Below, piece by piece: positions 2,511 through 26,900 of a stretch of 64,000 nt of DNA. The DNA is taken from NCBI RefSeq assembly GCF_019649055.1, contig NW_026570268.1:930001-994000 (forward strand), in the 5' to 3' direction. The notes under the pieces were generated by a model. That model saw only the letters and a program-made list of their open reading frames with translations. It was not told the DNA's origin and ran no database searches. The translations under genes were made by a program, and so were the position numbers. This DNA is from Paramacrobiotus metropolitanus (Eukaryota > Tardigrada > Eutardigrada > Parachela > Macrobiotidae). The stretch's first letter is position 1; each line of letters starts with the position of its first letter.

Positions 2511-5136
2511 ATGATGGAGGATTTTTTGTTTGCCCGAATATGCACAACTCCTCTGCTAACGGGTCTCTACAGTCGGTTTGTTGTCGACATAGTGGACGAC
2601 AACGGCTTTGTATATCGTGGATACGTCTGCGGCGTGGAGAATGATCATTGCTGGGTGCGAATCGGCTGCTTGCAGCAGAAACTGCAACTGATACCCATGA
2701 AAAAGTTGAGTCGGGTGGGCTTATCCGGACAGCATGCCGATTACAGCATCCAGGAGACGGAAATCGCCAACCCAATCGATGTCCTGGTCAGTGTCGATGA
2801 GGATCATCCGGAATCCTGGCAGCCGGCTAGTTCCGCCTATGCTTACGGCTATCCCTTCTTTACGCTGCTGAATCTCGAGGTTCTCCTGAATGACACAATC
2901 AAACGGTACCGCGTGCTGGACGGTGGCGACGCCGCCCTGAAGCGGGTTCGTCGGAGCGGACCGCTGGGACTGCCCGTGACCCGGGAGTCTTTTCGCCGCG
3001 TGCTCATCCCATTTAGTCGGTTCAGAAAGGAAATTCCCGATATTGCGGAGGTGCTGCAGCGCATCCAGGACATGCCCCACTTTCGCAGTCTCTTCCTGTG
3101 GCGGTGCGGTGTGGGTAAAGCGGTGATGTTTCTCGGGGTGGAGGATGAGTGTGTGGCCGTGTTAGCGGCGAAGGGTCGTGGTACAGGCCCCCGGGATGAG
3201 GACATCGTCAAGTACGCGGTGTACGCCGTTAAGCGTTGCGTGACAGCACTGACCAGGAGCGCCCCGAAGACCGTGGCCAGAATGCTGGATAAACTGGTCA
3301 GCGTGGTTGGGGGCATGGAGCGTAAGTAAGCAGTGTCAACTGCACACAAGGTTGGCTTAATTACGACGTTATATAATTCGATTTCGGTGTTTAAACACTG
3401 TGCGATGCAGGTACTTAAAAAGTGTGTACTAGCTAAAACTCGAGTGTGTAAATGATGGGGAAATCTGCGTTACATGCAAGATTTCTGAAACATTCTCCGT
3501 TTCAGTACAATTTGTACTTATGTACGCCCATTGTAGACCTGGACGACCCATGTGAATTACACTATAGTGACATGCCTGCGGAGTTGCACATGGTTGTATT
3601 TTCCTATCTGGATGCCTTTGATCAGTATCAGATTCGCAGGTACGATATTTGGATGATTTTCTTGTACTCGTAGACATTCGTACGTAGGCGTACGCAGTGA
3701 GCTCTATCACATCTGGCTCACTGGCTGGATTGTTGGCCGACAATTCGCTCTTCTATAATTTCATTGCCTGATTTTTCCCAGCTACTTCGTTGACCAATGA
3801 CCAATGTTGAACCGCATGTTTATCGGTCTTTGTTATTGGGTTTATTGTTCATTCGTATTTTTTCTTGCTGAGTAATCTTTTCTTGTATTTTTATGGGTTC
3901 CTGGATTGCTTAGGTTTTCTTAGGTTCTTCGCTTTCGTAGTAGTTTATTTAAATTTCTTAGGTTTCCTGAGATTTCATGGGTTTCTTTGCTTCTACGCTT
4001 CTTAGACGTTTTAAGTGGGTTTTCTTAGTTCTTTTTGGTTTTAAGTGGGTTTTCTTAGTTTTTTTTGTCATCAGAAAATGTCTTCAACAAAAATGTCGTA
4101 TTTAGCAAAACTATAGTTCAGCAACCTGTCGACCATCAAGTTGTCGGTTTCAACAATAAATTGTCGAGTAAACTGGCCAGCAAAAACGGCGTCAGTAAGA
4201 CAATGGTATGGCGTGTTGCGGCAGCTAAAACTCAAGTTGTTGTCGGTCAGACTGGCCGACAACAACTTGTATTGGCAGTAAGGCCGAGTCCGACTCGGCC
4301 TTACTGCCATTACATTACAGTTATTTTTGTTACGGCTAGTACGGTATCCAGATTTCTTTGCTTTCAGAACGTGTAAATGGTTCCGTCGTGTATTAAGTTC
4401 TGAGCTAATCCAACAGTGTCTGATCCTACCACGTCAATCCCTGGATGTCCTCGATGCTCTAAAACTGTTCTCACGGCAGCAGTGCGCCCACTTTATCGGC
4501 GACCGCGCTACGATACTGTACGTGCTATGCAGCACGGTAACCACCCACACCAGAATCCTTTACCTCATTGGTAACTGGGAGCTATGCGTGCACTACCTGG
4601 CCAACGTTATTCTGCAGTTTCTCAACGTCAAACTCGACTGGCTGATCATCGCCGACAACACCGTCCTGACGTTCCACGAGTTCCTCGAATTCCCTAAACA
4701 GTCGCCCATGCTGCATACGGAGGACAATTTCCTTACATTCCAAGCCACGCTTCAGCCGGTGCCGGATTACGCCAGCGTAACGCGCCACATCGTGCTGAAG
4801 AATTGCTGCTTTGATAGCCGGCACTCCATCTGCTTCATGGTCTTCTCGTATAAATGGCACGAAGACAACCGCATCCGTCCCGTGCGGCGCGGTCGGTCCC
4901 TGGCCTGCTGTCATGCGCCGTTCCGTGTGGTACTTCCGTATTGGAAGTACAGTTTGACGGATTCCGCGTCCACGCTGGCAGCGGACTTTCTGTCCGCGTT
5001 GGAACAGCGGTGTCCCGCACTTCCCGATCATAAAATCCGAGCCATGCTAACCTGGATGAATTCGCTGACGGATGATGATGTATATCACAAATACTACGGT
5101 GTCTGGCCGTTTTTCGTGCTGTGTTATGAGCTGTGA
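2511..5136 (+). CDS. Tudor-like/F-box protein, copy 1 (lineage-specific family)
   Basis: Three exons: 2511-3321, 3537-3639 and 4368-5136, giving about 560 residues. Residues about 20-75 form a Tudor-like barrel (FVVDIVDDNGFVYRGYV, then a basic KKLSRVG end). A conserved middle region follows (LIPFSRFRKEIPDI near 195). An F-box (DMPAELHMVVFSYLD then QIRRTCKWFRRVL) starts near residue 285, and a long C-terminal part of unknown fold follows. The first exon would read into a TAA after a good GTAAGT donor (phase 1). Splicing to the acceptor cccattgtag at 3536 keeps the frame and matches the phase of the same intron in copy 2 at 11.6-13.9 kb. The second intron splits the F-box after an Arg codon in both copies. 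The family is known to me only as an F-box, meaning an expected SCF ubiquitin-ligase adaptor. The Tudor call is by pattern. The start at ATG 2511 is chosen because nothing upstream in frame is an ATG. Treating the two halves as separate genes is the alternative. Confidence 0.7.
4233..4309. repeat. Two adjacent perfect hairpins in the F-box gene intron
   Basis: Arms 4233-4246 and 4256-4269 (CAAGTTGTTGTCGG and its complement, 14 bp, loop 9). These are followed by arms 4273-4289 and 4293-4309 (TGGCAGTAAGGCCGAGT and its complement, 17 bp, loop CCG). Both are exact. They lie just before the third exon of the gene. Confidence 0.9.
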
Positions 5137-6568
5137 GTGCCGACAAATGTATCTGTTCTGCAGAAGCTTATCACGACAATTAAGGTGATGTGATAACGAA
5201 CAGAACGATGAAGTAATATTATTCTGTAGGTGGAAGAAAAAAAAAGAAAAGCCCAAGAACTTCGAAGAGGTTATGAAGGACGTGGCTACTAGGTTACCGG
5301 CGAGGAGTTTGCTTATGCTAACACTCGCCTTGTTAATGCCTTTCCCGGAAACGTCTGCATAAAGTAGACTCAGCCTGAAAGATTACGTCAAAGTTTTCGC
5401 ATGTCAGAGGAGCACATATTTTTTTAACAGCACATCAATGCAGGTGGCGTCTGTGGTGACGAAACGTATTCTGGTTGAACATCAAATCATTCAAATGTCA
5501 CAGGTGGTTTAGCATTTAGCTGCTCTTGTTTTACGTTGATGTTTACGTCAGGCTTTAAATTTACCGTTCTTATGAAAACAATGTCCGTTTATGATTAGTA
5601 AGCGATTATTGCCGATCAGCAGTACAGCACATATTGCGGCTTGCAGGCAGCAATCACTAAAGATGAAGTTGGTTGTATAAATTATTGTGGCCGCCGCATA
5701 CATCTAGGGAACAGTTAGTATACGTCTGTTTTCTGGACCACAATGAATGCAAATTCGAATTCTATTCTATTCGAATTCTATTCTTTGTCGTCTTCCATAC
5801 TTGCTCTGCCATTCAAAGGAAATCCAGACGATCGACATTACAACAAGTTGCGATATTAGGCAGTTTGCCAGGCCCGTATCTACGTCTATGACCTTTACAA
5901 TGTCCCGCAACAGCGATGTTTAGTCGTTTAATGTAAAGCTGTGTTCTGCACAAATCGTAAAATGAGAATGATTGCAGATCTTCCGTCAGAAGCGCACTGC
6001 CACAAAACGAGACGGTCTATTCACGTGCCAATGCATACAGTTCACAACATTTCCAACGACATTCCTCTCCGTTATCACACTTTCCAACATACCACCCAAG
6101 ACTATCGGTACATTTCCCATGGCAGATGAAAGTCAGTTAGACAATAGCATGATCCACAGGCACACGCGCCGGTCGTGCGCATCCGCGCAACCACACGCGA
6201 CTGGCAGCGCGTTGTTAGGTGAATACTTGCGGGATGGCTGTGTGCGCGGCAGTGTAGACAGCGGTTCAAGGTCTTTGTCGACGGATGCTTCTACTGTCCT
6301 GGGGCGCAACGGCACCAGTTTACGAGTACATTGACGAGTCAAGCCAAAGTGGAGTTTTTACCACATAGGAACACGTATAACCATTCCAGCGTTAGAGAAT
6401 GACAGCCTGTAGTACTCGTATAACACAAAATACCCCTGCTTCTGCTTTTTGTATGTACAAAATTTATTAATTCAAAGCGTGTTAAACCGCTGTGTTAGTC
6501 CAGACTGAGCCGGCAGCAACGTTGTTAGAGATAGAATTTTTTTGCAGAATATATATCCCCAGCTCGCC
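5137..6568. other. Intergenic; left part of duplicated block
   Basis: No convincing gene. A T-rich 3' flank follows the F-box gene. From about 6200 the sequence resembles 9270-9400: both contain a run like gcgggatRgYtgtgtRcgcggcagtg, followed by gacagcggttcaa. This marks the start of a tandem segmental duplication that includes the secreted-protein gene downstream. Confidence 0.5.
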
Positions 6569-7290
6569 ATGCAGTGCATTCGCTGTGTTGTGGTTACAGC
6601 CATTTTTTTGTACAGCGGTGTTGCGCGAATGGTTCCGGTCCATGCCCATGTGAACAGGGATAGGCGGACGACAAGGAAGACGTCGGTTGCAACTGGCACA
6701 GCCGCTGCAAAAACCCCGCACCACGCGGCGTCGACCAGCGGTAAAACAGCGAGGAAGTTGACGACAACGTCTACCACCGCAGCACCGGAAGCAGAGGAAA
6801 CCATCGAAGCACCGAAAGCTGAGGAAGCCATTGAGGCAGTGGAACCAGAGGAAACCACGGCGGGCGCGGGCGGGGAGCCGTTCGGCCGCGGCGCCTATCT
6901 CGACTCCGAGGAAATGGATAACCGGCCCGGCAGTGCGCTCTTCTTTCCCTCGGGCACCGGCTCCATCAGCGTCCGCGTCAAAAAGACGCAGAACGCGGGA
7001 CAGCGCTCTGCCAGTCCAGGAATATACGGACAATCCGCTGTCACTGGCTGATGATCCCTCTTCTGTTCTAATAAGGCCCTGCCGGTTTCAGCGCTATTCT
7101 CCTAAATGTAACAAGTTACTAGTAAGCGCATGGTTGTTAACTTTAACCTTGTATCCACAGCTTCTGCACCGGGTTTCAGTACGATTTTGCTGAATAGTGT
7201 GACAAAATCTGTGCAGTTTTTGTTATATTTCGTTCTCTTGCTATAAATAAGAAAGCAAAAAGCTGAGCAAAAGGAGACCGTTTTAATGCC
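6200..7290. repeat. Segmental duplication, unit A
   Basis: Collinear with unit B (about 9270-10490). The shared order is the 'cggcagtg..gacagcggttcaa' block, then a gene leader CTCGCCATGCAGTGCAT, then the secreted-protein frame. A common 3' flank follows, with CACTGGCTGAT.ATCCCTCT, GTGTGACAAAATCTGT and TGTTCTCTTGCT-like stretches. Divergence is substantial, so the duplication is not recent. Confidence 0.7.
6569..7051 (+). CDS. Small secreted Thr/Ala/Glu-rich protein, copy A
   Basis: Single exon of 160 residues. The N-terminus MQCIRCVVVTAIFLYSGVA has a hydrophobic core typical of a signal peptide, and a HAHVN stretch follows. The rest is low complexity: a Thr/Ser/Ala/Lys segment with TTTSTTAAP, then an acidic segment of repeated E-A-[IP]-E units. 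A more ordered tail contains GEPFGRGAYLD, RPGSALFFPSG and GSISVRVKK. The ATG at 6569 is preferred over upstream non-ATG starts because the same ATG and CGCC context occurs in copy B at 9822. I do not recognise the family. Conservation of the tail between copies A and B suggests it was under selection before copy B broke. Secretion is inferred from the leader only. Confidence 0.55.
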   Translation: MQCIRCVVVTAIFLYSGVARMVPVHAHVNRDRRTTRKTSVATGTAAAKTPHHAASTSGKTARKLTTTSTTAAPEAEETIEAPKAEEAIEAVEPEETTAGAGGEPFGRGAYLDSEEMDNRPGSALFFPSGTGSISVRVKKTQNAGQRSASPGIYGQSAVTG

Positions 7291-7477
7291 CCACAATTAC
7301 ACAATTATATAATTATATAAAAACACCCACCTACACAATTATATAAAAATCACAGACGGGCCCAACCTTCAGCAAAAGCACATTAGCATCAGTATGCAAA
7401 AGAACTACCGACACCAGGACTACACCAGCCATATTACGATATAGATCCTGGGATAGATGATAGTGTCGTTCACACGG

Positions 7478-7850
7478 GCTTCAGTCTTTGAACCAACTAT
7501 CAAGGGCCGCAATTGTCACACTGGGAATGGAGGCAATGTCCAGTTGTCGGAGATCCATCGTGTCCCACCGGTGCGGATTATGATCCACACGATGGCAGTT
7601 ACAACTTCCACCTAATTAGGTAACAGAAATGGTTTGTGTATTTGTCGGGTACCGGTCTTGCGACAATGTCACATACAGCTATAGAAAACTGCGAATACAG
7701 CTCCGCTGATCCGGATAGACCAGCGCCCGCAACCAGCGCGCGTGCATAGCGATGACCTTTTCGTATAAATGCTGACCAACCGCCGGACAATTGGACCTGG
7801 CCGCTGCCAGCAACATCCGCACAATTGTTCCGCAGTCGACGGGGCGCCGT
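7478..7850 (-). pseudogene. Decayed 3' fragment of a third Tudor-like/F-box gene
   Basis: On the minus strand 7478-7600 matches the last exon of the F-box gene at 11586-11709: both contain WDTMDLRQLDI and end in a [WC]FKD stop. 7680-7850 matches the end of its third exon (CPAVGQHLYEKVIAMHARW against CPAASQRVLQKVTAIHARW). The order and the intron between the two exons are kept, with a GTATGT donor. A TAG now sits two codons before the donor where copy 2 has a lysine, and no F-box or Tudor exon is found upstream. Beyond about 7850 the similarity fades. I read it as a truncated pseudogene. A short surviving gene ending at the TAG is a less likely alternative. Confidence 0.7.
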
Positions 7851-8455
7851 ATGTCGGCCGTGGCTACCATCTTCCCTGTGTGTTGACATCTTCGTGAACG
7901 TGGCGGAGGAAGTTGACCTTTTGTAGAAACAGACCCATTGCGGCTGAAGACACGCGACAGGCCCATGCCTACCAGACCGGCTGCGTAGTGACAGTACTGA
8001 CAAAAGTGCCGGCTTTCTTTCGTTATCGAACCTGGTCGAAATATTGGTGAGTGTCCACAGCGATACTGACATCCAGAACCTCAGCCGTACCCAATGCCAC
8101 GCACTGACAACAACTGATGATGTGCTGGTACTTTCCCGCCGCACAGGGAACTGCACTGGGATCTGCAATCACACTGCCAAACCGGTTAATGTGCTGATTC
8201 CGAATTCACATACTGGTGCAATGTGCAAGCTTGTCCGGTAATTTCTGACGAATCAATACAGCGAAGTACACAAATTCACGACGTAGTGTAGTGGCAGCTG
8301 TCATAGCGCAAACTCCGCGCTAAATATCTGTTGCTTGTACCTTTACGTAGGAAATTACCAGACAAGCTTGTAAGTGTAATTTATTAGGCACAGCCGCACA
8401 GGTACAGTATGTGGTACTATCGCTAACCACAGTCATAAATAATGTACAGGACAAC

Positions 8456-8531
8456 GGCGTTCTTGTCGTGAGTGTCGGGAATAGTTCCAATCGGGAATGT
8501 GGAGACGTAGGTGAAAGGAGCGCAGCAGCTA
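8456..8531 (-). pseudogene. Short degraded fragment of squalene synthase exon 2
   Basis: The plus strand carries ggcgttcttgtcgtgagtg, then cgggaatgtggaga and ggagcgcagcagc. This is the reverse complement order seen in exon 2 of the intact squalene synthase gene at 24533-24716, and in the better-preserved fragment at 10608. It is too short and broken to be coding. Confidence 0.6.
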
Positions 8532-8599
8532 GCAAAATGCCACGACGCGACATGAGCGTCGTGGTCCTTAAATAATTTGCAACCAAGCTATAATACTGT

Positions 8600-9270
8600 A
8601 TGTCAGTGATAAATCATGCAGTTGTGCTGGAACATGTTGCCATGCACCCGGACGCAAAATATTGTCATAAACGTGTGCAACAGCAAATTAACGAATGTGT
8701 GATGGTTAATTATTTTGAGCATCTAACACAGCAAATGATTAGCTATGCTCTGAACAGCCATGATGGGCGCAGCAAACTGCGGCTGGTCTGCTTGAGCACT
8801 CTGTAGCACATTTTCCGCTCGGCCGTCGTTCTTGTTCCGGATAATAATTCCGTTCCCAGGAAGCTCATCCGATAACGGTGAGTTTGACCAGCGAGAGTAA
8901 TTCCAGCGGGTGTGGGAACGGTTCAGATATCGACGTTACGCCGATTTTCCACCACCGTCACTGCAAAATTGCAGTGAGTTTGAATCCGTACAGCACAGCA
9001 CGCACTAGAATCCGTACAGCACGGCACGCACTAAGTGTGAGTCCGTACTACAAACTACAAAGTCGACGGTATTTATTCGGCAATGGCCAATTCAGATAAC
9101 ATTGAGCTTGCGCAGGTAGAAACAAACTACTTCAAATGATTCAAAATTTAAACAGGAAACAAAGTTACTATCTGTACACTTACTACAGTTCAGCAGATGA
9201 GCAGAATACCGTATCGTTCGTACGTACTCCGAATGATTTTGGCGATGATTGTCGGTGTTTTTTAACCGAC
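8600..9270. other. Intergenic between duplicated units
   Basis: No gene that I can support. At 8986-9043 there is a small tandem repeat of GAATCCGTACAGCACRGCAC, two full copies and a partial one. A minus-strand frame open over about 200 codons (9703 to 9092) covers part of this region and unit B, but it lacks an ATG near its start. Confidence 0.4.
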
Positions 9271-10490
9271 GAAGGGAAAGTGGAGAATGCCTGCGGGATA
9301 GTTGTGTACGCGGCAGTGGAGACAGCGGTTCAACGCCTTTGTCAGCGACGGTACCGATTGACGGGTACATGAGGCAGGCACTCAAGCCAAAGCTGAGTGT
9401 CTGCTTTTCTCCAGATCGTGCACGCATAATCGTTCTAGCATTATAGAATGATAGCCTGTGGGATAATAGAAAATCATATCCGGGCTTCTGCTTTTCTTGC
9501 ATTACGTTTGCAGCTCGTAACATCCCAATGCATGATCGCCGTTTTAGTAATTCTGAGCAGTATTCCGAATCCGGGCCAGCGGCAATGTCGTAACTGCAGT
9601 CCAGCCCCAAGGGAAAATAATTGTTACTAGATAAAGTATCCATGCATTTTCTTATTAAGGACCCAGTGCTCCTACCTGTACGTTCAATGCTAGCACAGCT
9701 CACATAATTAATAATAATTTAAAGCACGATCAACAGTTGTTCAGCTGCGCTAATCGAGGCTGAGCCAGCAGCAACGTTATAAGAATATATTGCAAACTGC
9801 AGTTCATCTCGCCGACTCGCCATGCAGTGCATCAGCGATATCGTGGTAATAGTCGTCCTTTTGTGCTGCGGTGTAGCGCCAACAGCACCCAATCCGGTGC
9901 ATGCCGATAACGAAGTGGACGGAGATAAGCGGATGACAAGCAAGACGCCGGTTATTACTGGCGCAGACGCTGCACAAATCCCGCACCACGCCGCTTCGAC
10001 AAGCGCTCAGCAGGCCAGGAAAAGGACGATAACGTCCACCACTGCAAAACCGGACGCTAGCACCGATGAAGAAATGATTATGACCACCCCGTTCCGTTCG
10101 GCCGCGGCGCCTTTCTCGAGACGATAGGTGACAGGCCCGGCAGCGAGCTCTTCTTTCCCTCGGGAGCCGGCTCCATCAGCTTCCGCGTCAAGAAACGCCG
10201 AACGCGGGCAGCATTAGACAAGTCCCGGATTATGAAGACGCTGCGCTACCACTGGCTGATAATCCCTCTCCGGTTCTGATATAATGCTCTGTTGATTATC
10301 AGTGTTGTACTCGTAAATCTATCAAGTTACCGCTAAACGAACGGTTGTTAGCCATACATAGGTCCACTCTCACACAGCAGCTGCACTGAGTTTCAGTAAG
10401 ATTTTCTGGAATTGTGTGACAAAATCTGTTCAGTGTTTATTATGTTCTCTTGCTGTATATCAAGCAAAAAGCCCATTTTTAAAGCCCTAT
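9270..10490. repeat. Segmental duplication, unit B
   Basis: Second copy of the block at 6200-7290, about 3 kb away in the same orientation. Unlike unit A, its secreted-protein gene is followed almost directly by the squalene-synthase exon fragment, without the F-box remnant in between. Confidence 0.7.
9822..10280 (+). pseudogene. Secreted-protein gene, copy B, frame broken by a 5-bp duplication
   Basis: The frame starts at the same ATGCAGTGCAT as copy A and has a matching leader (MQCISDIVVIVVLLCCGVA). It then has the same Thr/Ser region and TTTAKPDAS-like stretch. At 10089-10098 the bases CCGTT are duplicated in tandem (CCGTTCCGTT where copy A has one CCGTT). The annotated frame therefore stops at 10127 after 101 residues. 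The conserved tail (FGRGAF, RPGSELFFPSG, GSISFRVKK) is still readable in another frame to about 10280. Either the gene is dead, or it now makes a short secreted peptide, or the duplication is a sequencing or allelic difference. Confidence 0.7.
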
Positions 10491-10607
10491 CTACAAAAGT
10501 ATGGAAACCACAGAGGGGGACAAGCTTCTGCAGACCACTGCGCTTTTTATATGGACCTTGATATCAGATAGATGATAATGTTATTAGAAAGGTCGCGATT
10601 CGTCATG

Positions 10608-10755
10608 GCGTTCTTTTATTGACTGTCGAGGTGCTTTCCTCTGGGAATGTGGAGTTTCTTGTGGAAGGAGCGCAGCAGCGGCCGTTTGATGTCCAGCGGG
10701 ATGCTTGTGTTGTCCTCCACGGACCACGCTGTCCAGGTAGAAGATTCATGTGGCG
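10608..10755 (-). pseudogene. Squalene synthase exon 2 fragment (antisense to the intact gene)
   Basis: About 150 bases match the reverse complement of exon 2 of the intact gene at 24533-24716. Shared blocks include CTGTCGAGGT, GGGAATGTGGAG, CTTGTGGAAGGAGCGCAGCA, GATGTCCAGCGGGATGCT and CCAGGTAGAAGAT. There are many substitutions and a short deletion, and no flanking exons are found. It therefore records a duplication of a single exon onto the opposite strand, some 14 kb from the source. Confidence 0.8.
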
Positions 10756-10759
10756 TGTC

Positions 10760-11585
10760 TATGCATGTACAAACGCTATACCGAATATTAGTAACGTTTT
10801 TCGATCAGCAAAACCGGTTGAAACAGCGAGTGGTGCGTACTTCAAACTTATATCACTCTGGTCATGATCAGCTGACAGCAAAGCCCGGCTCGACTGAAAA
10901 ATATTTTTAGCCAAAACATATTTCTAAAATAGCGCGTCGTTACGCCGTCTTATAAGAAAGAGGAGCTACGACAATATGGGGTGCGGCCACTGCGAGCATT
11001 TAATAACTGACAAAAGATGCCCATAGTTAAAGGAAATGTAAAAACGTTGTGCCCAGACGTCTGTCACCGCAGTATAACCGGGATGGCAAGAGCCAAGAGG
11101 TGAATATAATCGTTTCTTATTAATTTAACCGTGCTATGCTTCGGTCACATGCAGTTCCCGCAGAAAGCGAACGCACTTTTCTAGTACTGTACTTACAGTA
11201 TTACCTAATTAATCAGCGTCCGAAATTAAATTCCCATTAACGACCGGATCCAGCACGAGTCGTGTAGCTGTAACTCGTATGTAAGAGACTTGCGCCTGGT
11301 TAATAGTTTCAAATATAATTATATAAGCGCGCCAGAATATGCATAGCACGCTTTTGTCATTTTGAAAACGCGCTTCTATCATGGTGAATTTGGTCAAATT
11401 TTAATTTCTTTTAGCAGGGTTCCTTATCTTGCTATTAACCGTTTGATTATTCACGTCGAAAGCCAGTTACAAGCCCCACCCACAAATAAAACCAACGAGC
11501 GGCCGAAACGTCGGCGAAGAATCAGCACTAAACTTGGGAGCGTAAAACTATAACCACGTGGGAAGCAACATCATCCCCATCGGCT
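10760..11585. other. Intergenic, nothing recognised
   Basis: AT-rich flank between the exon fragment and the 3' end of the minus-strand F-box gene. Only short ORFs on both strands; no repeat or RNA gene seen. Confidence 0.4.
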
Positions 11586-13936
11586 TCAGTCTTTGAAGCA
11601 GGCATCAAGAGCCACAAAGGTCACATTGGTCAAGGAGGGAATGTCCAGTTGGCGGAGATCCATCGTGTCCCACCGCTGGGGATCGTCATCCGGGCCGAGA
11701 CAGTTGAACCTAACCAACAAAACATTCCATACACTTTTTCTTGGTCCATAAAACACGATCTCCGCAACCGGGCCACTTACAGCTTGAGAAAATCTCGGAT
11801 AACGCTCCACTGCTCCGGATAGACCAACGTCAGCATCCAGCGCGCATGGATGGCGGTGACCTTTTGCAGCACCCGCTGACTCGCCGCCGGGCAGTGGGCG
11901 TCAGCCGTGGCCAGCAGTATTCGTGCTTGTTCCGCGGCCGTTTGTGTGGAATGGAAACGCACCATCGGAATGATTATTTCCAAGCGATCCGGGGAATCAC
12001 GGATGTGATCCAGTTCAACATCCGGCTGGGGCACTCCATCATCGGCCCACAATATCGCGCAGGCTGATCCCTGGATGGCTTCGGACGCGGTGAAGTTGAT
12101 CAGCATCAGCTCATCGCAGACCGTCATCATCCCCGCCAATTCATCGCATTCCAACTGGCCGTTAAGGTCATTGCGCTGGAAGACCAGGAAGGCTTTTGTA
12201 CGAGCCACATCGATTACGTCACGACCGTTCTTGACAATGATCAGCGGCAGGTGTCGACTTTCAGCGTGTAAGAGTCTTCTGACTGACGACATTTTCGAGC
12301 ACAGCGCGAACCCGTTATGCAGATGATTCCGGCCTTCCGTCAAGGCCAGCGTGCGGGTGTAGTGCGGCTGTATGCGTTGCAGCAGGGCGCCCAGATTGTA
12401 CTTGAGATATTTATCGTACTCTTCCTCTAAGTCTTTGTCACCATAGGGTTGCCGGTCGCATTGGGCGCAGACATCCAAGAGGATGTCCCGGTTGTCCACG
12501 TAGCTCGTGCTGAGCAGTCTCCACAAAACACACACTCTGGCGAAGAAAAGATGCTATGGTCGTTAAGTTTCGCCAGTGTTATTTCTATTATTACGGGCTG
12601 TTGCATGGATAAGGTAAGCGTTATGGTCGCGCTCGTAGATGCCTGTTTATAATTGCATTTTGAAGCAATAACTGATTTAACATCTAGAACATTTAATTAA
12701 AAATATCTAAAACAAGTATAGTTTGCAACTTTGAGAAAAGTCTACTGTTATCCACAAACGTACATTATCTGTTATCGTACAAACAGCGAATTTATTCGGA
12801 TAAATACGGATACTGTACGGTCTGTACCTGCGTGTCCGCAACTGAGAATCCACGTCAAGATATCGGAATATTCCTCCCAAAATCGGATGCGGCAGCTCGC
12901 CTGCGCAGATTTGCAGTAATTAAAATCATTAAATAATTCGAATTCTAATCATTAAAGTTCGCTCCGATTGTTGCTGTGGTACGTGCTATTAGTTATAAAC
13001 TCCCGGAGGAACAGCACAAAATGACTACCGCCTTTCCTTTCAATCGATACCACACTAACCAAGCAGAGTCCCATCAGATGGAGTGGTGTCCATCTTCACA
13101 GGCAGTGTCGCTAGTCTCGCAGTGAGGTAGCTATCGCAGGCGCTCTTCAAGTCCTCCTCGTCCCAGAACATACTCTGTCTGTAGCGGTCCCGGTGCATCT
13201 CGGCGCAGACGAACGTCACCGTATCGGATCCCAGTCGGGCGAACAGACGACCACCGACATTGATATAATAGCAGGGACAGCTTCCACTGTCAGGGTGCAG
13301 CCCGGTGCACTGGAACAGCATGCAGTCGTCGCTAGCATGCGCAGAAAACTGACAATCACCTCGAAGACCGGGCGGCAATGATAACTGGCAGGTACGGGCC
13401 ACGAACGCCGGGAGGAAATCCAGATCGGGCAGCCGATGCGCCTGCGGATAGGGGATGGCGTATTTCCTGTACAGGAATCCGGAGCTGCGCTGGAAGAAAC
13501 TGCCACCATCGCCAGGCATCGGCAGAGCGGTCGCGATGTGCGACCACAGCACGAGGCGGTTGGCGGGGGACGCAGCAGAATCGTTCTCAGCCATACGCAC
13601 CGTGAAGAATCCACCGACTGAATTGTGAACGATAATGGCCTTACGAAGCACCAGCGGTCCCCCGTTGGTTTGCCGCAGCGCAGCGTGGATCGTTTCGCCT
13701 TGGCGTGACACGTCCGGTCTGCGAAGAGATGGATGCGGCCATAAGCAGCTGGAATGAATCCATTGGGGCTTCATGTCAGCCGCGTCGAAGTCCACCAAGA
13801 ACTTGTCGCCGTCAATGTCCTGAACGTATCCCAACCACCACTGGCCGTGGTCGCGCTGCACCAGCACCGTGTTCCCGTAGTTCAGCTCGCGAGCACCCGA
13901 GAACAGTTTGCGAAAGTACAGCGATGTCGCGGGCAT
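11586..13936 (-). CDS. Tudor-like/F-box protein, copy 2
   Basis: Four exons read on the minus strand: 13936-13060, 12900-12828, 12536-11781 and 11709-11586, about 609 residues. All junctions keep frame (phases 1, 2, 2), with donors GTTAGT, GTACAG and GTAAGT. Residues about 20-60 form a Tudor-like unit (NTVLVQRDHGQWWLGYVQDI, then DGDKFLVDFD and PQWIHSSCLWPHP). A conserved middle region follows (RKYAIPYPQ). The F-box is split by the second intron (ELPHPILGGIFRYLD then RVCVLWRLLSTSYV). The C-terminal region has weak repeats and ends ALDACFKD. The ATG at 13936 is the natural start. Copy 1 at 2.5-5.1 kb shares the order of parts and the two intron phases. A decayed 3' fragment lies at 7.5-7.9 kb. 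An F-box predicts binding to Skp1 in an SCF ubiquitin ligase; the substrate is unknown. Confidence 0.8.
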
Positions 13937-23975: not shown

Positions 23976-26900
23976 ATGGATGTTCTACAATATTTCTGCC
24001 ATCCGCTGGAGACGCTGGCGCTGCTGAAGTTGCGATGGTGGGGCTGCGAAGCCGTTCACGCTAAGTGCGACATGGTGCGTATTGCTGAGCGTTGCTGTGG
24101 ACTGCAAGGTTTGATGGCGCGTTTTCTACAGAAAAAAATGGAGGAGGATCGGCAGCTGTGCTACAGTATGCTCAAGCAGACCAGTCGCAGTTTCTCCGCG
24201 GTAATCATGGCGCTGGAAAGCGATCTGGGGTGTGTACGCGTGCTAAATTGCACAGGGGAGTCATGATCTGAATTTTAGTGTGAATTATATTTACCATGAA
24301 TTTTTCGAATATTTTACCTACATAAACTGCAAGAATATTGTCGTTGAATTTTTCTTCATTCCTACCGCTATCTCTGCCGGTTGTCTCAGATTGCTGTTGT
24401 TTTCTAGCAATTGTAATAATTATTTCCGTTCATAAAAAAATGATAAAAATTAAAAATCAATCATGTCAGAGTTAATTTAATTTGATTAATATCATTTTTT
24501 CCTTATTTTTTAAAAATATTTCTGAACTGCAGGTACGCGGTGTGCATCTTCTACCTGGTGCTGCGCGCTCTGGACACCATCGAGGACGACATGAGCATCC
24601 CGCTGGACGTCAAGCTGCCGCTGCTGCGCTCCTTCCACAAGAATCTCCACATTCCCGGCTGGAACTACCTCGACAGCCGCGAAAAAGACGCCGTCGTCCT
24701 CAACAACTTCCACGTGGTCAGTAAATCCCGGCATTATCATGCATTTTTTGCGCCCTCTTTTTTTCGAATTAATTTGCAATTTAATTTTCTAAAATTGAAC
24801 CCGGTTAATTACCTAGTTCAGATAAAAATAATAGATTAATTTGAATTAAATAATAAATTGAATATTTTGAATAAATCGAATATTTTGAATAAAAATAACG
24901 AAATGGCTACGCGCGAGAGTTTCTCGCGTTTCTCGCGCTATGAGTTTTGGCTACGCGCGAGAGTTTTCGGGCGGAACGAAATAAAAATAAAAAAATATAA
25001 TTTACCTTAATACTTTATAGATTATCATATTTGTCATGTCATGACAACCTGTAAATGCTGTACAAGTCACCTTCGTACATGAAAGTAAGTATCGTAATAT
25101 CGAACCGGCATCTCGCGCATTGCGCTGACCGGTGTTTCTGTAATAATTAGCCCACACAATGGCACTGGTAATTAAGATAGGCGACAGATTCGAATACTAC
25201 GCGGCGGCGTTACGTGCTGTCGAGGAATGGAGCGAATCCACTCATCAGGTCTTCATAAATCCCGGTGGCAATGCAAAGACTTCGAAAACGCACCCACTGC
25301 ACGACACCTTCCCGTACAGTTCAGTGAAACTGGTATGCAAGAAAGCCGGCGTGTATCGTCCCCATCCAGCCGACACACCGGTTGCCGCTGTTTCGAACAG
25401 TCCCTCGGCAACAAGGAACGAAATGGGCATGCCGCGGCGGAAGTCGGCCGGGATACCCCGCAGTCCACCGCGTCCAGGAGAAACACCCGCATGTGTCTCA
25501 AGTATCCGGAGAAACACCCGCGGCTCGGATACTTGAGACACATGCGGATGGTCAGAACGACGTCGTACACCGATTCGGAGAAGAACTGGTGGTGCTTCGC
25601 GAGGACATCAACAAAACGATCGGCTCGGATTTGGAGCTGAGATTACTCAACGCAGGAGTTTACCTGCTACGCAATGCATTTCCTTAAAGAGACGGGCCGG
25701 CTAGAACTTCCTGCAGAGTTGGCTCTGTGCCAGCATAACGACCAGTGTTACGCTAGGATTCGTTTTCATATCCGCATGCATGGAGGTATCATCATACAGC
25801 CGCTGTACAATGGCCTTCTTTCATTCTCAAAACCCTGGCGTGGTGCGAATATACTGCTCCACCGGTCAAATGCCCACCGATGCTTTGAAATTGCAACTCA
25901 ATTTCCTGTTCCCTTATCCCGACACCAAAGGCCAGGTTTGCCATCGAATACGTCCCGGTGTACGCCCAGTCTCCCGGCAGTAACAACTGCTTGGTATACG
26001 CTTTTGCGTATGCGTATGACCTTCTGCTGGGGAAACATATCCAGAGCGCAAATTACGCCCGGGATGAGGATTTCCGACAGTGGTTCTTAGATATAATACA
26101 AACAGGAGCACTGACACCTCCTCCTCGAGTACAGGGAAGAAACACTCGAAGAAAAACTTCTGTGACCAAAAATAACGCTGTAGTAACGGCAGCTGATGTA
26201 CTGCTTATAATTCGCCGGCTGGGAATGCCTACCGGTTTCCGAACGACTGCGGTGTGACTGATTTGATGCAAATTGACTGATGCGACAATTATAATGCACT
26301 ATAAACAACTCCAGAGCTGAAATTATGTCAAAATATGTTGATTATATTCATAAATAGTGGCGCCGAAAAACTCTCGCGCGTAGCCAAAACTCATAGCGCG
26401 GGAATGTTCTCGCGCGTAGACATGACGTAAAAATAAATTGATTAAATTAATGTGTATTTAGAAATAAGGTAACAAAGATTATTATGAAAATGAATAATGT
26501 ATTGCCTATTTAATATTGTAGTAAAATAGACAAAATAAATATGAAGCGTCTATAAAACTCCAGAATATGGTTTTTGTTATTTTGTCCCAGACAAATCTGC
26601 ATATTTATGTTATTGTGCAGATCTCAGCGCAGTTCCGGCGCCTGGCGAAAGGTTACCAGGACGTGATCAGCGACACGTGCCACCGCATGGCCGAGGGCAT
26701 GGTGGTGTTTCTGGAGAAGAACTCCGTCGTCGACACCTACCAGGAATGGGACCAGGTTCGTTCTAATTTACAACAAAAATATTACAAAATAATGGCCAAA
26801 CTATTTTTCCAAATATTTTCCCCGGAAATTTGACGTTTCATTGCGGCTTTAAATTTAAATTTTTTCATCATACCTAACGTGATTAGAAACTTCTTAGAAA

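Follow-up and report, generated by a model that had tools for sequence, protein, structure and literature searches.

Two genes sharing one layout

A 64,000-nucleotide stretch of the genome of the tardigrade Paramacrobiotus metropolitanus (hereafter the window; assembly GCF_019649055.1, contig NW_026570268.1, positions 930,001 to 994,000 of the forward strand) holds two genes, here called A and B, in which an N-terminal tandem Agenet/Tudor module precedes an F-box and a C-terminal region. An initial annotation had described two opposite-strand genes with a common layout, and the gene models bear this out: gene A lies on the plus strand at 2511-5362 (4 exons, 603 amino acids) and gene B on the minus strand at 13936-11586 (4 exons, 609 amino acids). 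Elsewhere in the genome, a query with a CAHS protein, a type restricted to tardigrades, matches at E 3e-69 with 65% identity.

Exon 1 of gene A (2511-3321; start ATG at 2511 or 2514) encodes the tandem module and a KH0-like middle region. The first repeat (2565-2729, residues about 18-72) and the second (2769-2957, residues about 86-148) are colinear in their profile match to FMRP/FXR, and the middle region (2958-3320) has the position and order of the FMRP KH0 domain, with supported alignment at its start only. The F-box begins in exon 2 (3537-3639), behind a phase-1 acceptor, and ends in exon 3 (4368-5132), which continues into the C-terminal region and is homologous to exon 3 of gene B; homologs of exon 4 (5230-5362) lie downstream in two other loci of the genome, L029 and L030. 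Gene B is built in the same way, with the module and middle region in exon 1 (13936-13060), the first part of the F-box in exon 2 (12900-12828), the end of the F-box and the C-terminal region in exon 3 (12536-11781), and an exon 4 (11709-11586) that is strongly conserved among paralogs. Its first repeat (13885-13727, residues 18-70) contains the invariant residues W33, W34, Y37, F50, W59 and W66, and its second (13699-13511, residues 80-142) varies between paralogs.

Analysis of open reading frames and splice sites gave intron phases of 1, 2 and 2 in both genes. Intron 2 is placed identically, following an Arg codon and splitting the next one (AG|A); the phase-1 intron before the F-box and the phase-2 intron inside it had already been recognised in the initial annotation, which missed the third intron and exon 4 of both genes because a stop codon seems to close exon 3. 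This apparent stop is part of the 5′ splice site of the third intron (CT|GTGAGT and CT|GTAAGT in the two genes), and exon 4 is open in the correct frame in both. When the exon-4 peptide of gene B was searched against the genome, 150 scored matches were obtained among 383 candidates, the best non-self matches being 60-83% identical, and an exon 4 was present on the same strand no more than 4.5 kb downstream in 24 of the 30 best B-type loci, against 2 of 30 in the other-strand control. Intron 2 of gene A also holds short, near-perfect inverted repeats (4233-4314).

Homology of the N-terminal module to FMRP and FXR proteins

The PDB was searched with a profile built from 44 N-termini of subfamilies A, B, C and D. 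The six FMRP, FXR1 and FXR2 chains all ranked first, with expectation values (E) of 6.8e-12 to 9.8e-8 and alignments colinear across both repeats, and the next matches were the Polycomb-like (Pcl) Tudor domain at E 0.005 and AGDP3 at E 0.03. The D-type profile alone found FXR1 at E 6.8e-7. The strongest single evidence for an FMRP-type module came from locus L091, which was found in the genome through its match to human FMR1 (E 2.9e-8); its exon 1, searched as a single sequence against the PDB, aligns to FMRP residues 6-164 (E 5e-10), and an F-box exon scoring 35.8 bits lies downstream. On this homology, the module can be assigned specifically to the tandem Agenet domains of FMRP/FXR type, rather than to Tudor-like folds in general, which sharpens the Tudor-like assignment of the initial annotation.

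Exon 1 of gene A and that of gene B did not match each other significantly, either by direct BLASTP or in an A-B profile comparison, but they are linked via intermediate subfamilies. Profile-profile comparison connected D to B (1.5e-8), A and C together to D (1e-10), and all subfamilies to FMRP/FXR (3.3e-10), with reversed-profile controls giving probabilities of 0.8% or less. Of the FMR1-family sequences in these comparisons, that of FXR2 was confirmed against the PDB, and the PDB searches are independent of them all. With Pfam Agenet, 12 of the 44 members matched at E up to 0.1 (best E 1.5e-4), and the sub-threshold Agenet/Tudor matches fell on the first barrel in subfamily B and on the second in locus L072. 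The module is assigned here by its homology to FMRP/FXR, not as a member of the Pfam Agenet family.

In order and spacing, the two predicted barrels correspond to those of FMR1, FXR1 and FXR2, which in FMRP fall within residues 1-120. The alignment runs on as far as the first strand of KH0, and with the whole-exon profile of subfamilies A, C and D it continues into the KH0 of 4qvz and 4ova. Genes A and B differ from these proteins in having an F-box and a new C-terminal region, and no KH1, KH2 or RGG was found in either (no Pfam KH family at E up to 5). The genome has a separate, canonical FMR1 gene at C5:3432981-3433961, where human FMR1 1-323 is matched in one 630-codon open frame; since the match lies in one open frame, this gene seems to be intron-free there. 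The F-box relatives, like this FMR1 gene, carry the module in a single exon. A weak second FMR1-like match, to the KH region, lies at C107:304092-304878 (E 2.8e-4).

The module and the F-box very probably belong to one gene

The F-box scores meet the curated Pfam cut-offs in both genes, with F-box-like at 25.3 bits in gene A (cut-off 24.3) and, in gene B, F-box-like at 24.3 bits, exactly at the cut-off, and F-box at 20.8 bits (cut-off 20.5); scores of relatives reach 46.6 bits. The genomic sequence has in-frame stops between exon 1 and exon 2 of both A and B, as would be expected if the Tudor-like exon and the F-box exons were separate neighbouring genes. Against this arrangement stand the positions of F-box exons in 60 exon-1 relatives (two of which, L017 and L028, overlap). 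An F-box exon lay downstream on the same strand in 52 of them and on the opposite strand in none, a placement far beyond chance, with constant order, strand and phase. Moreover, at locus L077 one open frame runs without interruption through the module and an F-box of full score (37.7 bits), and at L069 an open frame runs from the module to the intron inside the F-box, covering the first half of that domain. Among 53 exon matches with a GT donor at this F-box-internal intron, 35 have it in phase 2. The same-strand order, the conserved donor phase and the two open frames make separate genes very unlikely, close to excluded, and the fusion of a barrel module to an F-box in one gene, as first proposed, is supported.

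An open frame at L043 was rejected as a genuine fusion, since intron 1 is probably read through there. A GC donor (AG|GCAAGT) takes the place of GT at the F-box-internal intron 2 in about a dozen B-type paralogs (including L036, L040, L044, L046-L052, L055 and L056), an unusual concentration of GC-AG introns. At L075, a long in-frame minisatellite-like array, about 600 bases on the minus strand, adjoins an F-box gene.

A superfamily of several hundred copies

A DNA pattern for the B-type motif WWLGYVQ had 216 exact matches in the genome, whereas the reversed pattern had none; a looser pattern gave 235 matches, compared with 4 in its control. Searches with exon 1 gave at least 161 genome matches of D type (from 654 candidates), 75 of A type (fragments included) and, for B type, 139 among the matches listed, from 796 candidates. 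A search for the F-box family returned 1083 first-look candidates, and all of the 150 that were scored matched. We then sampled F-box loci for an upstream module, using profiles built without the tested locus; the module was present on the expected strand in 10 of 15 loci taken at even steps through the ranking and in three of five additional loci picked from the same ranking, and reversed sequences gave no matches. The product of one F-box locus, L071, is an ordinary F-box protein that weakly matches leucine-rich repeats. From the motif, exon-1 and sampled F-box counts, the superfamily comprises several hundred copies at least, some of them pseudogenes. The clusters, fragments, stop codons and decayed copy fit the birth-and-death family suggested in the initial annotation, with hundreds of members rather than two or three.

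Such numbers could also reflect a mainly runaway, selfish-like F-box expansion with little organismal function and many pseudogenes, which would account for the hundreds of clustered copies, the fragments, the in-frame stops and the decayed copy in the window. Intact copies, however, are under purifying selection: in exon 1, gene A and its nearest paralogs have ratios of non-synonymous to synonymous substitution (dN/dS) of 0.22-0.26, and median dN/dS across regions is 0.15-0.6. Splice phases and exon 4 are conserved as well, and such a runaway expansion has only a slim chance of being the main explanation.

Predicted SCF substrate adaptors

We read A and B as members of a lineage-expanded set of substrate adaptors of Skp1-Cullin-F-box (SCF) ubiquitin ligases, composed of an FMRP-type N-terminal domain, an F-box and a C-terminal region, and give this reading a probability of roughly two in three. 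The F-box would dock on the product of one of the four Skp1 genes of this genome, and hence on Cullin-1, and the N-terminal module and C-terminal region would choose what reaches the ligase. Some F-box proteins act without Cul1, and the kinship of the module to the N-terminus of an RNA-binding protein family would also suit Skp1-binding proteins that work outside SCF ligases, such as factors of RNA granules or chromatin. Expanded F-box families are nonetheless mostly regarded as SCF adaptors, and we consider a role outside the ligase improbable.

Several results weigh against the adaptor reading or its FMRP-type component. Single members score below the Pfam Agenet (PF05641) cut-off of 27 bits (gene B at 17.6-20 bits, E 1e-3), the B profile alone found FXR2 in the PDB at E 0.79 only, and KH0 taken alone was not significant (probability 7% or less). 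A and B share a homologous C-terminal region (E 3e-5 over 174 columns), which in neither gene matched anything in Pfam or the PDB, FBA2 and FTH included. Finally, AlphaFold models, run on single window sequences and not on a deep alignment, were of low confidence (mean pLDDT, the predicted local distance difference test, 41 and 34).

The gene B model contains four strands at residues 22-61 with pLDDT of 62-67, and most of the remainder is below 50; the structural check proposed with the initial annotation thus gave a low-confidence barrel for the first Tudor repeat of B and little else that folded confidently. With Foldseek, the best matches of this low-confidence Tudor-1 model were the Tudor domains of PHF19, PHF1, FMRP and FXR2, at E 0.06 or worse. 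Foldseek combined with VIA-align on the B model returned many Tudor domains and also myosin SH3-like domains (best Z 4.6), and since both kinds match, fold matching alone decides nothing. The predicted structures are consistent with the sequence evidence, though too weak to stand in for it.

Selection on exon 1 is purifying, and its strength differs between the two barrels. Constraint in subfamily B is strongest on the first barrel (mean identity 77%, median dN/dS 0.15), and W33, W34, Y37, F50, W59 and W66 are kept in all 29 members; the second is variable (identity 38%, median dN/dS 0.53). In subfamily A, the Phe50 position is Ile, Val, Leu or Met in 20 of 20 members, the equivalents of W33, W59 and W66 are replaced, and the Tyr pair alone is kept. 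The initial annotation had called the module a methyl reader, a claim not supported as stated: judged by these residues, subfamily B may plausibly read methyl marks, and subfamily A is unlikely to do so. Given a constrained first barrel with invariant aromatics and a variable second barrel, a common ligand for the first Tudor repeat of B is plausible, with diversity elsewhere. This barrel is nearly constant among paralogs and its aromatic set would suit such a ligand, possibly a methylated one; specificity may come from the parts that vary, namely the second barrel, middle region and C-terminus.

For the tandem Agenet domain of FMRP, binding of methylated lysine and of proteins such as FUS has been reported (PMC5430443), which makes methylated or RNA-granule proteins the natural candidate ligands, for subfamily B first. 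The constraint on the first barrel would, however, suit a constant partner better than diverse targets, and the reported binding of proteins such as FUS could be read in the same way. Under this alternative, the C-terminal region alone would recognise substrates, as FBA2 and FTH are thought to do, and the FMRP-type module would be a constant scaffold that dimerises or directs the protein to RNA granules or chromatin. The C-terminal region does vary and belongs to no known family, but the diversification of the second Tudor repeat among B paralogs runs counter to a constant scaffold, and we regard this division of labour as unlikely, though a genuine contender.

The adaptor reading can be carried further: a tardigrade lineage may have fused the FMRP N-terminal reader to an F-box and multiplied the product into several hundred adaptors that send methylated or RNA-granule proteins to ubiquitination, a modification-guided degradation system of a size like that of the nematode F-box arsenals. 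This is a tentative proposal, rather unlikely to hold in full. Biologically, the family could serve to target foreign or selfish proteins, a role proposed for the nematode F-box expansions.

Comparison with known systems

KDM2-type F-box proteins also join an F-box to a chromatin-related domain, but they have JmjC, CXXC and PHD in place of Tudor/Agenet and form a small family. The Tudor/Agenet histone-mark readers PHF1/PHF19 and AGDP match the module far more weakly than FMRP/FXR do, and those proteins have no F-box. The F-box-FBA2 and F-box-FTH proteins of Caenorhabditis likewise form very large clustered families with birth and death, amounting to 39 to 1426 F-box genes per species (PMC8665587). 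In those proteins, the F-box lies near the N-terminus and is followed by FBA2 or FTH. In the tardigrade proteins, by contrast, the F-box follows an FMRP-type module, and the C-terminus has no Pfam match.

An FMRP-type module before an F-box was not found in the open-access literature or family libraries searched. No open-access paper combined tardigrade, Tudor and F-box, none of the listed open-access papers on tardigrades and F-boxes concerned such a family by title or abstract, and neither F-box nor Tudor is mentioned in the genome paper on Hypsibius and Ramazzottius. What is new is the combination of known parts and its very large copy number; the size of an F-box expansion in itself is already known.

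Nematodes and plants have large F-box arsenals that are interpreted as systems of defence or conflict, but the ligands of their reader regions are largely unknown. Here the reader region would be a domain with known structures and candidate ligands, the FMRP tandem Agenet domain, placed before an F-box hundreds of times. If our reading is correct, this would be an animal system in which a Tudor-type reader is linked to ubiquitination, and an F-box expansion that arose independently in an ecdysozoan phylum other than the nematodes. It would also provide hundreds of natural variants for comparison with the FMRP N-terminus, over whose ligands there is still debate.

A decayed copy and its neighbourhood

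Between the two genes, on the minus strand at 7484-7833, lies the decayed third copy that had been noted at 7.5-7.9 kb. It is of B type and consists of the end of exon 3, with an in-frame stop, and exon 4 (tblastn E 4e-23); the genome search with the B exon-4 peptide recovered it as well. The segments 6489-7263 and 9744-10472 form a tandem pair with 69% identical DNA, and their products are small Thr/Ala-rich proteins with a hydrophobic, signal-peptide-like start. The order of this pair parallels that of the B-type copies (7477-7833 and 11582-11935), and therefore a multi-gene segment appears to have been duplicated, after which one F-box copy decayed. Three further segments (10607-10748, 8448-8529 and 8757-8810) recur in inverted orientation near 24.2-24.7 kb (24157-24700) with 77-84% identity, perhaps as a dispersed repeat or a further gene remnant.

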